NCBI GenBank assembly: GCA_014799405.1
Contig: JAAVIA010000055.1
Location: 1-44,614 of the forward strand
Length of the DNA: 44,614 bases
Origin: Lachnospiraceae bacterium
GTDB lineage: Bacteria; Bacillota; Clostridia; Lachnospirales; Lachnospiraceae
Direction of reading: 5' to 3'
Positions within the stretch are counted from its first letter, which is position 1. Each line of letters begins with the position of its first letter. The notes beneath the pieces were generated by a model that had not been told where the DNA came from, searched no databases, and worked only from the letters and a program-made list of their open reading frames with translations. Positions 18,224 through 24,208 of the stretch are shown here, piece after piece. Both the position numbers and the translations under genes were made by a program.

Positions 18224-19756
18224 TTATTCAATAACTATACCGGAAGAAATCTCCATAAGCCTTGTTGAGTATTCCTGTCCCTTCAAGGCAATAATGTCAT
18301 ACGCCTCCTCCTCTGAAATACCATAGGTATCCCAAAGTGCCGTTACAATTTTAGCCTTACAGCCGTCTATATCCCCAGCTATTCCAAGCTCTACCGCTTC
18401 AGCATAGTGGACATCATGCTTTTCCAAGCCCCTAAGCAACGCATCAAGGGCCTTATCAGGACGGTTAAGCGATAAATTATTTTCATATGATTCGTACAGC
18501 CTCTCAACATACATCACAGTATATATCCTGTCCTTAAGTACCTGGTCATCTTCTTTTACGTCAACTCCCGATACCTCATCATATGCCAGTCTGTACCTCT
18601 GTCTATCAAAATAATCAGTAGCCTTCTTTATAACCTGAGAATAGTTAAATTTATTTGAGCCAATCACAACCAAAACACCAAGTGCAATAAAAATTACAAA
18701 AACTATGGCAACAGCAGGAGTTGAAAGCTTCTTTTCATCCTTTTCCGCTTCAAGCTCCGCATTTAACTCTGCAAGCCTCTCTTTTTTCTTTTTTTCCTTT
18801 TCTTTTTTCTTGTCCTGACCCTGTTTTTTCTTTAAGGCTTTTTTCTCGCTACTCTTAGCCTTCTTCTCAGCCTTAATAACATCTTTTTCAGATTTCTTTT
18901 CTTCTTTTTCAGCCTTCTTTGCCTGAAGACGGCGTTCCTCCTCCTCATCATCTTCGTCAGGCTCTCCAAATAAAATTACAGAAAGTGATTTCTTTCCTCC
19001 GTTTTCTCTTTTCCCCTTTGATTTCTTTGCACCCTTTTCTCCAATTTCATTTATATCATCAATATCACCGTGCTCAAAATCCAATTCCGTAGCACCATCA
19101 ATCATGCTGTCAAGTTGATCCTGATTGGTAGTATAATCATCTTCATCTGATGAATTATCGTCATCAATGCCAAGAGCAGAAAACAAATCATCAAGATTCA
19201 TATTTTCCACATCAGCAGGCACATCCATATCTGCACCCATCTCATCCATGGACATCCCAAACATTTCTTCGTCCATACGCTGTTCCGTTTCTGCCTCACT
19301 AAACACCTCCTCGTCAAAGGAAAGGGCTTGTTCCGGCATTGGCTCAGGTTCAGGCTCCGGCTCAGACATATTTTCAAATTGAAGCTCCCGTGCCTCTGCT
19401 TCGCTCTCCATGAAGATATCCGCCTCATTGGAAGAATCAGGAGCTTCCTGTGTCTCCGCCGTCTCGGCAATGAGTGCTTCCATATCAAAATCACCGTCAT
19501 TTGAGTTATTACCGACAGCAGGTTTTTCACTGCTGAGCTTAGTAACATCAATGTCGTCAAAATCTATGTCATCTAATTCCAATGACGATAAATCTATATC
19601 ATCAAGTGCATCCAATTCATCCAATGAGATATCCTCCACATCAGAAAAATCTATATCAATGCCGGCGTCTTCTGACATACTTTTATCAAAGCTGTTTTGT
19701 TGTCCGTTATTCCCTGATAACTCACCTAATAAATTGTCAAGATAATTTTCGTCCAT
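18224..19756 (-). CDS. Acidic low-complexity protein with one TM
   Basis: 510 aa: Asp/Glu-rich N-terminus including SEPEPEPEPMPEQ, long Lys/Glu charged linker, TM (TPAVAIVFVIFIALGVLVVIGS), helical C-terminal domain. Confidence 0.8.
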   Translation of the reverse strand: MDENYLDNLLGELSGNNGQQNSFDKSMSEDAGIDIDFSDVEDISLDELDALDDIDLSSLELDDIDFDDIDVTKLSSEKPAVGNNSNDGDFDMEALIAETAETQEAPDSSNEADIFMESEAEARELQFENMSEPEPEPEPMPEQALSFDEEVFSEAETEQRMDEEMFGMSMDEMGADMDVPADVENMNLDDLFSALGIDDDNSSDEDDYTTNQDQLDSMIDGATELDFEHGDIDDINEIGEKGAKKSKGKRENGGKKSLSVILFGEPDEDDEEEERRLQAKKAEKEEKKSEKDVIKAEKKAKSSEKKALKKKQGQDKKKEKEKKKKERLAELNAELEAEKDEKKLSTPAVAIVFVIFIALGVLVVIGSNKFNYSQVIKKATDYFDRQRYRLAYDEVSGVDVKEDDQVLKDRIYTVMYVERLYESYENNLSLNRPDKALDALLRGLEKHDVHYAEAVELGIAGDIDGCKAKIVTALWDTYGISEEEAYDIIALKGQEYSTRLMEISSGIVIE

Positions 19757-19969
19757 TCCGCACTCCTCATATTTACAGTAATTTTATATTTTAAATTTGT
19801 TACACAATTACTGTAATAATACCACATACAAATTTAATTAACAAGATTTTTGCATTCATTTCGACAAAAGCTTATTATTGATTTTTTTATTGTAATGTTA
19901 TATCATAGGGAATGTATTAAAATACAAGTTTGCTTTTTATTTGGAAAATATACATAAGGGGGTGTTTTT

Positions 19970-20753: not shown

Positions 20754-21545
20754 TTATGCGTGCATTTTATATTCAATTCTAAGCTTATCTGCAATCAACG
20801 CTATAAATTCAGAATTCGTCGGTTTGCCTTTTCCGGCACTTACTGTATATCCAAACATTTCCTCAATCACTTCTATTTTTCCCCTGCTCCATGCCACCTC
20901 AATTGCATGTCGTATAGCCCGCTCAACACTGCTTGATGTTGTCTTGTATTTTTTCGCTATACTCGGATATAAAAGCTTTGTAATAAAATTCAGCATATTC
21001 ATATCATTTATTGCCATGATAATTCCTTCCCGAATATACTGATAGCCCTTTATATGTGCAGGTATTCCAATCTCACGTATAATCTCCGTAACATCATTTT
21101 CAATGGAAGATGCCTGCCGACTCACATTTGCCCTCGCATCAATCTCCACAAGCTCCTCATCCTTTGATAAGCCTGCAATCTGTATAATTCTCTTTGTCAA
21201 TATTTCAGGGTTACACGGCTTCATAATGTAATAATCCGCTCCAAGATTAAATGCCATGCTTATTATACGTGGTGAACCCACGTTAGTAATAAAAATAATG
21301 CTTGTCCCTGAAAATTCTTCATTTGCACGTAGCTGCTCAACAACCTCAAGCCCGTCAACATTTGCAATAAATACATCAATCAGAAGAACATCCGGTCTGC
21401 ATTCCGAAACAATGTCATAAACAGCTGCCCCATCATCTGTTGTACTTACAATATCAATAGTATCTTCGCTTTGAACCTGTAATTGCTTTGATAGGATTTC
21501 ATAGCCTGCGTCTGCAATTACAACCCGAACTTTTTGTTCAGTCAT
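20754..21545 (-). CDS. spo0A: Spo0A-family response regulator (paralogue 1, near-canonical receiver)
   Basis: Receiver keeps PDVLLIDV (Asp), FITNVG (Thr), YYIMKP (Lys); C-terminal Spo0A DNA-binding domain [20 protein letters not shown]...[19 protein letters not shown]...[16 protein letters not shown]. Confidence 0.92.
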
Positions 21546-21596
21546 AACAATCTCCCCTTTAGCTATTCTCCATATCAATCATATAACCATATGGAG

Positions 21597-21662
21597 ATAA
21601 TATAATTTCATTTTTTCATTGTCAAGGTCGAATTTGCTTATTTTGCCAATAATAATTCGACA
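21597..21662 (-). promoter_or_regulatory. spo0A-1 promoter with 0A boxes
   Basis: Reverse strand TTGACA (21620-21625) - 17 bp - TATTAT (21597-21602); 0A-box-like GGTCGAAT at 21626-21633 (+) and TGTCGAAT at 21655-21662 (-). Confidence 0.7.
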
Positions 21663-21671
21663 TATTGTGAC

Positions 21672-22460
21672 CTAGGCGCTTTTCATTTTACTGTCAAGTC
21701 TTATCTTATCGGCAATAAGCGCTATAAACTCCGAATTTGTAGGTTTTAATTTACCCTGATTCATTGTATAACCAAACAATTCATAAATTGTATCTGTTTT
21801 TCCCCGCCCCCATGCAACCTCAATTGCATGTCTTATTGCCCTTTCAACTCTTGATGAGGTTGTCCCATACTCCTTAGCAATCGAGGGATACAACTGCTTT
21901 GTTATGGAATTCAAAACATCCATGTCACGTACCGCCATGATAATTGAGCTTCTTAAATACTGATAGCCCTTTATATGTGCAGGAACACCTATCTCATGTA
22001 TTATCTCGGTAACCTTCCGCTCCAAATTACTCTCGTAAATTTCATCTGAGCTCTCACATATGTGAATGCCTTTTTGTTTTGATTTGGACGTATTTATTAT
22101 TTCCTGAAACAAATCAATACCATCTGCCGCTTCGTCAATTATGTTTATGTATATATTATTTAATTTTCCCTTGTATATTTTTTCCAAAAATTTTATTTGG
22201 CTCATATTTGCTTTTACAAGAAACTTAAACGGACAATCCTCCCTTTTATCTATCTCATCCATTATGGCAATACCATCTAAATTAGGCAGCAATAAATCGA
22301 TAATTACAATATCAGGATTATATTTTAAAATTCCGTCCATTCCTTCCTGTCCATCCGTGAAACAGCCGCAAACATAAAAGTCTTTCTTTGTCTCAAGCAT
22401 GACCCTTAATTCATTAGCACTTCTTAAATCATGCTTGATAACAAGCACCTTTATTCTCAT
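21672..22460 (-). CDS. Spo0A-family regulator (paralogue 2, degenerate receiver)
   Basis: DNA-binding domain [20 protein letters not shown]...[19 protein letters not shown]...[16 protein letters not shown]; receiver lacks the acidic pair, conserved Thr and conserved Lys. Confidence 0.9.
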
Positions 22461-22540: not shown

Positions 22541-22626
22541 AGTTGCGACACTAGGATTTGACAACATTTTCAGTCAAAAAAATAAGGGACCGTCACACGC
22601 AGGTAAATCCTTAGTGCAACAGACCC
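22541..22626. repeat. Interspersed repeat-family hairpin copy C
   Basis: AGTTGCGACACTAGGATTTG...TAAATCCTTAGTGCAACAGACCC: outer arms match each other with a small indel and match the family consensus. Confidence 0.6.
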
Positions 22627-22632
22627 GCTATT

Positions 22633-23529
22633 TTATGTATTAATATTCATCCTCGCCCTAGGATGTGCCTTATCGTATTCCTCTTTTATTTTACTTCTTC
22701 TGCTTCTTAAATATATCTGTGTTGTTGAAATGTCCGAGTGTCCTAACATTTCCTGCACGGCCTTTAAATCAGCTCCGTTATTTACAAGATGTGAAGCAAA
22801 TGAATGCCTTATCATATGCGGTGTAATCTCCTTGTCAATTCCCGCTTTCTTTGCATAGGATTTTATAAGCTTCCAAAATCCCTGTCTCGTCATCTGTGCG
22901 CCCTTCAAATTAGTAAACAGATACTCGCTTCCCTCGCACATACTTTCCCTTGCATTATTTATATAATTTTCGAGAGCAGATCTCGCTGCATTTTCTATAG
23001 GTATAACACGTTCCTTACTTGAATCCTTACATAGAATATAACTCATGGATAAATTTACATCCTCAAGCTTGATTGAAATAAGCTCTGATACTCTCATGCC
23101 TGTGGCATATAAAAGCTCAAGCATAGCCTTATCCCTTATCTCCTTCGGCGTCTGCTTTGACGGTTGCTCAAGCAGTAAATTTATCTCCTCAATATTAAGA
23201 ACCTCCGGTATCTTCTTTTCTATCTTGGGCGGCTTAATCTGCTCTGTAGGATCTGAAGCTATAACATTTTTTTTCAGCAGATACATAAAAAATGATTTTA
23301 CACTTGCAATGTTTCTTGATATGGTAGCCGATGACATCCCCTGCTTTTCAAGCGATAGTATATATGAAGAAAGCTCTGTAGGTCCTATTGCCGTTATAGA
23401 GACAGTATCCTTATCCTCAAGGTAAACACAAAGTTTGAGCAAATCTCTTTTGTAGGAAGCCATTGTGTTATTACTGGAATGTTTTACTTTATTTAAATAA
23501 TCAATGTAATCATCTACATATTCTCTCAT
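22633..23529 (-). CDS. xerD: Tyrosine recombinase XerD
   Basis: ELLYATGMRVSELISI, ITPHMIRHSFASHLVNNGADLKAVQEMLGHSDISTTQIY catalytic motifs; chromosomal nudF-spoIIM-xerD synteny. Confidence 0.93.
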   Translation of the reverse strand: MREYVDDYIDYLNKVKHSSNNTMASYKRDLLKLCVYLEDKDTVSITAIGPTELSSYILSLEKQGMSSATISRNIASVKSFFMYLLKKNVIASDPTEQIKPPKIEKKIPEVLNIEEINLLLEQPSKQTPKEIRDKAMLELLYATGMRVSELISIKLEDVNLSMSYILCKDSSKERVIPIENAARSALENYINNARESMCEGSEYLFTNLKGAQMTRQGFWKLIKSYAKKAGIDKEITPHMIRHSFASHLVNNGADLKAVQEMLGHSDISTTQIYLRSRRSKIKEEYDKAHPRARMNINT

Positions 23530-23628: not shown

Positions 23629-23636
23629 TTTCGACA
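23629..23636 (-). promoter_or_regulatory. Candidate 0A box upstream of xerD
   Basis: Reverse strand TGTCGAAA. Confidence 0.35.
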
Positions 23637-23662: not shown

Positions 23663-24208
23663 TTATCCAAGTACCATATATTGATAGTATTTAAATAAAA
23701 AAAATCTCGAAAAAAATCCTTCACACATGACTCCAATTGAAAATAATATAGCAAAAAGTATCAAAATTTTTGTTTTTTCATATCCGACTCCTCCATAATA
23801 GTCATACAGCAATTTTATAATTAAAACATAAACTATGTAATGCGGCAGTAAAAAAATGAGAAGAATCAGCATGCCGTTCATACCCAGATAATAGCTTTGG
23901 ACAGTTGCCATAATTCCAAACATCCCACTCATTAATGCAAGCAAGGTATTATAAACGTATTCCGTCTTAAGCACCTTCATCAGCATCCATATAATGGCAA
24001 GCTGTTTTCCCCGCTTAAATATAATATAGATGATAGACGGCGCCATCCTTGAGGAAAGCACATCTCGCATATCATAAGCTGACAGTGTAAGATATTCAAA
24101 GTCCAATCCCCTCCTTATAAAAAGATTTATCAAAAAGCTTGATAAAAATATTGTGACAAGAAGTATTACTCTTCTTCCACCCCTATACATATAACTACTC
24201 GTTTCCAC
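23663..24208 (-). CDS. spoIIM: SpoIIM-like membrane protein
   Basis: Multi-TM protein with FLLPHYIVYVLIIKLLY resembling the SpoIIM LPHG region; lies between NUDIX and xerD as in Bacillus. Primary similarity is weak by eye. Confidence 0.6.
   Translation of the reverse strand: METSSYMYRGGRRVILLVTIFLSSFLINLFIRRGLDFEYLTLSAYDMRDVLSSRMAPSIIYIIFKRGKQLAIIWMLMKVLKTEYVYNTLLALMSGMFGIMATVQSYYLGMNGMLILLIFLLPHYIVYVLIIKLLYDYYGGVGYEKTKILILFAILFSIGVMCEGFFSRFFLFKYYQYMVLG

Follow-up and report, generated by a model that had tools for sequence, protein, structure and literature searches.

This analysis revealed that the genome of a gut bacterium of the Lachnospiraceae carries two consecutive full-length Spo0A genes, A and B, whose products have both lost part of the receiver machinery of a phospho-switch. 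The genes lie in what we call the window, the whole stretch of DNA analysed (44,614 nucleotides). They form an ancient, co-maintained paralogue pair, and we consider it slightly better than an even bet (probability roughly 0.55) that they share between them the role that one Spo0A plays in other spore-formers. An earlier note on this DNA had pointed out the pair. Features beyond that description are the diverged receivers, which lack catalytic residues, and a serine in B at the position of Arg211.

Results

Two full-length Spo0A genes in tandem

21672..22460, minus strand: spo0A-A, 262 aa, start at 22460, TIGR02875 237 bits
20754..21545, minus strand: spo0A-B, 263 aa from the ATG at 21545, TIGR02875 280 bits

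The claim that two consecutive minus-strand genes each carry a full Spo0A DNA-binding domain was borne out. Both open reading frames are present, A upstream and B downstream with a gap of 126 bp between them, and both match the Spo0A equivalog model TIGR02875 over their full length (280.3 bits for B and 237.1 bits for A, at a cut-off of 200 bits). Positions 1-104 of PF08769 (Spo0A_C) are covered in both proteins, at about 150 bits each. The mechanical list of open reading frames begins gene B at a TTG at 21578 and not at the ATG at 21545, which is preceded by a AAAGGGGAG ribosome site. Within the DNA-binding domain, 82 of 112 residues are identical (73%), close to the 70% over about 115 residues that had been estimated by eye, and the sequence motifs quoted at the time are correct. 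Identity over the receiver and linker is about 23%.

The genome-wide search for another spo0A that had been suggested was run, and A and B proved to be the only Spo0A_C genes; as the genome is 98.6% complete, a small residual chance of a third remains. A recent duplication or an assembly artefact was ruled out by the low receiver identity and by the recurrence of the pair in many independent assemblies, including isolates. A phage origin was likewise rejected, phage forms having no receiver and the window copies keeping their chromosomal synteny.

Distribution and phylogeny of the pair

The distribution was assessed in 200 genomes of the same family, nearly all from different genera, 139 of which contain Spo0A_C. 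A tandem full-length pair was found in 10 of these 139 spo0A-bearing genera, the window counted and Anaerostipes among them, which agrees with the view that the two genes are genuine tandem paralogues and an exception to the single-copy norm. A scan of named genomes added pairs in Anaerostipes sp. MSJ-23 and 992a, Candidatus Anaerostipes avistercoris and Eubacterium sp. MSJ-21, and two Clostridium sp. NALB assemblies carry the pair in the same xerD context as the window. The gene order, A then B, is constant across all pairs. Two further genomes, G070 and G131 (98-99% complete), likewise have only the two Spo0A_C genes.

The phylogeny of the C-terminal domain across Lachnospiraceae, also proposed earlier, was built from an alignment of the DNA-binding domain in which residue 211 was masked. 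The 27 A copies form one clade (support 99/97), and the 27 B copies together with two lone B-like copies form a second (support 100/99); the full-length tree gives the same split. The separate A and B clades point to a single duplication, after which both copies were inherited; that the pair is ancient we regard as close to certain.

Several other Spo0A variants were observed in the family. Lone B-like proteins with Ser211 and no adjacent A occur at L166 (in G106), L168 (in G192) and L232; the first two, lying away from any A, indicate that B can exist unpaired. The protein of L162 (G169) combines a complete receiver with a serine at position 211 and falls outside the B clade, apparently through an independent change at the same residue. 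Single or second copies outside the A and B clades with incomplete receiver residues were found at L144, L150, L170 and L174, and receiver-less short Spo0A_C proteins of about 170-220 aa occur in many family genomes (L052, L055, L056, L061, L065, L067, L083 and others). Outside the family, the Ser211 B-type pattern had no match in order or phylum samples, a weak negative given that the pattern misses the serine codons TCA and TCG; a variant with cysteine was seen in G243.

Both receivers have lost catalytic residues

Five residues characterize a phosphorylatable receiver: two pocket acids (DD), the acceptor Asp, a Thr or Ser, and a Lys. Where any of them is missing, the domain is classed as a pseudo-receiver (PMC12632262). 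Counted in aligned full-length proteins, all five residues are present in 157 of 161 single copies, as against 11 of 31 A copies and none of 33 tandem B copies. The full set is absent from both window proteins. A has K-H in place of D-D, Ala for Thr and Asn for Lys, keeping an Asp at the acceptor position (1/5), and this acceptor is the sole survivor of the five residues in A throughout the window's clade. B has D-A, Asp, Thr and Lys, and thus keeps the first pocket acid (DD1) while the second (DD2) is replaced by Ala (4/5); DD2 is acidic in none of the 33 tandem B copies. Judged by these residues, both window proteins fit the definition of pseudo-receivers, and the window genome is predicted to be without a canonical phospho-receiver Spo0A. 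We regard the receiver changes in A and B, read from aligned sequences, as close to certain. The fold itself is probably kept: the model of the A receiver shows the alternating strand-helix arrangement, with a pLDDT of about 90 over most of the receiver and a TM score of 0.78 to the Spo0A receiver 1qmp, and the model of B has a receiver fold too.

Receivers this different mean that A and B are not merely two copies of a single phospho-switch. In Anaerostipes-type genomes, A keeps all five residues and is thus canonical, and therefore the pair cannot require a dead A receiver.

The retention of DD1, Asp, Thr and Lys, and the match to the equivalog model, would also suit a B that is an ordinary phospho-switched Spo0A tolerating the loss of DD2, with A as a secondary partner or a gene drifting away. 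B might be phosphorylated slowly and would then be a slightly altered ordinary switch. We consider this reading unlikely, since DD2 contacts the metal directly (PMC12632262) and is acidic in 157 of 161 single copies, and since A is under strong purifying selection and is therefore not drifting. A Spo0E-like phosphatase, considered as a sign of live phosphorylation, was uninformative: none was found in 17 of 18 genomes searched, canonical ones included.

The recognition helix of B is altered at one position

Residues are numbered after the B. subtilis Spo0A sequence, which we take as a coordinate frame only. Position 211 is Arg in 107 of 110 single-locus proteins and in every A, and Ser in all 33 tandem B copies. 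E213, R214, R217 and H218 are invariant in both A and B, so that the helix set is complete in window A and lacks only R211 in window B.

The earlier note had argued from near-identical recognition regions that the two proteins compete for the same 0A boxes. This inference of equal recognition is not supported, since B has Ser at a nearly invariant Arg, although competition at some shared sites may occur. The fixation of Ser211 amid an otherwise invariant helix could instead mean that A and B are two independent homodimeric regulators with diverged targets, A acting on classical 0A boxes and B on a relaxed or altered box. The two lone B-like copies without an adjacent A fit such independence, and an R211H change was reported in an asporogenous Paenibacillus polymyxa strain, confounded there by a second change in DegU (PMC9195935). 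We nevertheless find this explanation doubtful, as a fixed gene order and the keeping of both copies in many genera speak for joint action and as the unchanged remainder of the helix may leave the site nearly identical.

The same substitution, combined with DNA-binding domains that are 73% identical, permits a revised form of the competition idea, in which B (and, in the window's clade, A too) would be a brake or tuner that sets the sporulation threshold by weak binding to 0A boxes or through inactive mixed dimers. This appears quite unlikely, as in the window's clade A is itself without a normal receiver and there is no obvious canonical activator to oppose.

The pair was relocated in the window's lineage

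22633..23529, minus strand: xerD, TIGR02225 352 bits, the new upstream neighbour after relocation
23663..24208, minus strand: spoIIM-like membrane protein, PF01944 8.3 bits (below the cut-off), named mainly from its position beside xerD
18224..19756, minus strand: 510-aa protein with no assigned function; a conserved gene that comes after the pair in the window's clade and before hisH and hisF

In 68 of 109 single-copy loci of the family, spoIVB lies just upstream on the same strand at a median gap of 175 bp; in the remaining loci the contig is short, the orientation differs or spoIVB has no match in the stretch. Neither window copy lies beside spoIVB, as had been stated: the pair adjoins xerD, and recN-spoIVB is on another contig of the same genome (L173:1667-3856), without spo0A after spoIVB. 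The gene that follows spoIVB there encodes a linear amide C-N hydrolase resembling choloylglycine hydrolases. The further statement that the pair follows spoIIM-xerD holds for xerD and for the presence of a spoIIM-like neighbour, but the SpoIIM assignment itself is weak.

In relatives, argR-recN-spoIVB precedes the pair, with the same 510-aa gene and then hisH and hisF coming next in the window's clade. The downstream side is intact in the window, and the upstream side consists of nudix-spoIIM-like-xerD. Because the pair stands after recN-spoIVB in close relatives, the lack of an adjacent spoIVB is, on gene order, a rearrangement in the window's lineage and no clue to the origin of the pair.

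Putative 0A boxes precede both genes

21656..21662, minus strand: perfect match to the 0A-box core (TGTCGAA) between A and B, upstream of B; shared with L177-L180 and L183
21626..21632, plus strand: near 0A box with one mismatch, abutting the -35 of the predicted B promoter; common to L177-L179
21597..21625, minus strand: sigma-A-like promoter of B (TTGACA, 17 nt, TATTAT), read from sequence
22544..22550, minus strand: near 0A box TGTCGCA upstream of A; same heptamer upstream of A in L177-L180, L186 and L187

The window contains seven exact 0A cores in 44.6 kb, and 0.02 would be expected in the 126-bp gap. The promoter stretch TTGACAAT...ATTATAT(T/C)ATC is kept in L179, L180 and L182. As a 0A core, a near box and a sigma-A-like promoter all precede B, the arrangement suggests that B is transcribed from a promoter of its own that Spo0A controls. 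Elsewhere, perfect cores are found at 23630-23636, about 105 bp upstream of the xerD start (conserved in L177 and L178), and at 19860-19866, about 105 bp before the 510-aa gene (window and L177-L179 only). When the regions upstream of spoIIA, spoIIE and spoIIG were examined, a perfect core was found upstream of spoIIGA in G070.

Both genes are maintained by selection in a potential spore-former

Measured against L177, a close relative, A has a dN/dS of 0.02 (0.05 in its receiver alone) and B one of 0.04 (0.09 in its receiver alone); in more distant comparisons, synonymous sites are saturated. Both genes are under purifying selection, and these low values rule out a pseudogene. The window genome has SpoIVA, SASP, SpoIIE and SpoIVB, and homologues of sigE and sigF, with SpoIIE, SpoIVB and sigF scoring below NCBI cut-offs (for SpoIIE this holds in every related genome tested). 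From its gene content, it still looks like a spore-former. In G180, a genome of the same genus that is 100% complete, spo0A, SpoIVA and SASP were not found and neither sigE nor sigF had a close match, which in terms of gene content is the pattern of a former spore-former. The genus thus seems to hold both a potential and a former spore-former, and the two genomes provide a useful natural comparison. Related Anaerostipes isolates, which may or may not carry the pair, form spores (PMC12888040).

The losses in G180 raise the prospect that sporulation is disappearing from this lineage and that the pair is a remnant, with one or both genes decaying. Given the dN/dS of 0.02-0.04, the presence of all tested sporulation genes and the retention of the pair across about 10 genera, we hold this to be highly improbable.

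Discussion

The constant tandem order and the co-retention across many genera favour joint action of A and B, which we deem likely on these comparative grounds. That they act specifically as an A-B heterodimer is plausible, at somewhat less than even odds. In B. subtilis, Spo0A dimers occupy paired boxes on the DNA, and a mixed A-B dimer would therefore join the box recognition of A to the input of B. In the scheme that we propose for the split of work, A would contribute standard, strong 0A-box recognition without a working receiver, and B would carry the remaining signal input together with a weakened or altered DNA-reading head. Sporulation would be started by A and B together, most likely bound to paired 0A boxes in heterodimeric or mixed-oligomeric form, and the 0A boxes at the B promoter would place expression of B under Spo0A control. 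Activation would depend on dose, partner binding or non-standard phosphorylation of B, instead of the classical phospho-switch. In its most complete form, the proposal is that one Lachnospiraceae lineage has replaced the phospho-switch by an obligate heterodimeric pair of pseudo-receiver Spo0As, one subunit reading DNA and the other taking a non-standard signal; this we put forward tentatively, as an idea that may well be wrong.

Phosphorylation of Spo0A is regarded as the gate through which endospore formation is generally entered. If our reading is correct, a lineage that bears sporulation genes and has only phospho-incomplete Spo0As shows that this gate can be rewired, and spore formation in the window's branch may start in a non-standard way. 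The pair would then offer a natural system for studying how an essential phospho-switch is replaced, with the intermediate stages laid out from a canonical A with an altered B (Anaerostipes) to two altered copies (the window's clade). It also serves as a warning that the presence or count of spo0A in gut genomes does not equate to one orthologous switch.

In the open-access literature, no description of a duplicated, tandem, paralogous or atypical Spo0A was found. The section of the Anaerostipes genome paper on its Spo0A tree does not mention a second copy (PMC12888040), and a review of atypical response regulators contains no occurrence of the term Spo0A (PMC12632262).

By homology, the pair clearly belongs to Spo0A, although its defining catalytic residues are incomplete. 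The two-domain layout, the Spo0A_C fold, most recognition-helix residues and the 0A boxes at its own promoter are shared with the TIGR02875 group of Bacillus subtilis, Clostridioides difficile and single-copy Lachnospiraceae. The window pair departs from that norm in having two co-located copies, neither with the full receiver catalytic set, in the Ser of B at the Arg211 position, and in its location away from spoIVB. Both proteins resemble the pseudo-receiver atypical response regulators, which are without one or more of DD, D, T and K (PMC12632262). A functional precedent for mixed dimers in sporulation is provided by BldM and WhiI, two likewise atypical response regulators that act as a heterodimer in Streptomyces (PMC4125116). 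These belong to another phylum and are not a tandem Spo0A duplication, and their heterodimer is proven, whereas that of the window pair is inferred. Finally, the Spo0A of gut phages has no receiver at all (PMC10294663), like the extra receiver-less Spo0A_C genes of some family genomes, whereas those of the window are full-length chromosomal genes conserved through inheritance.
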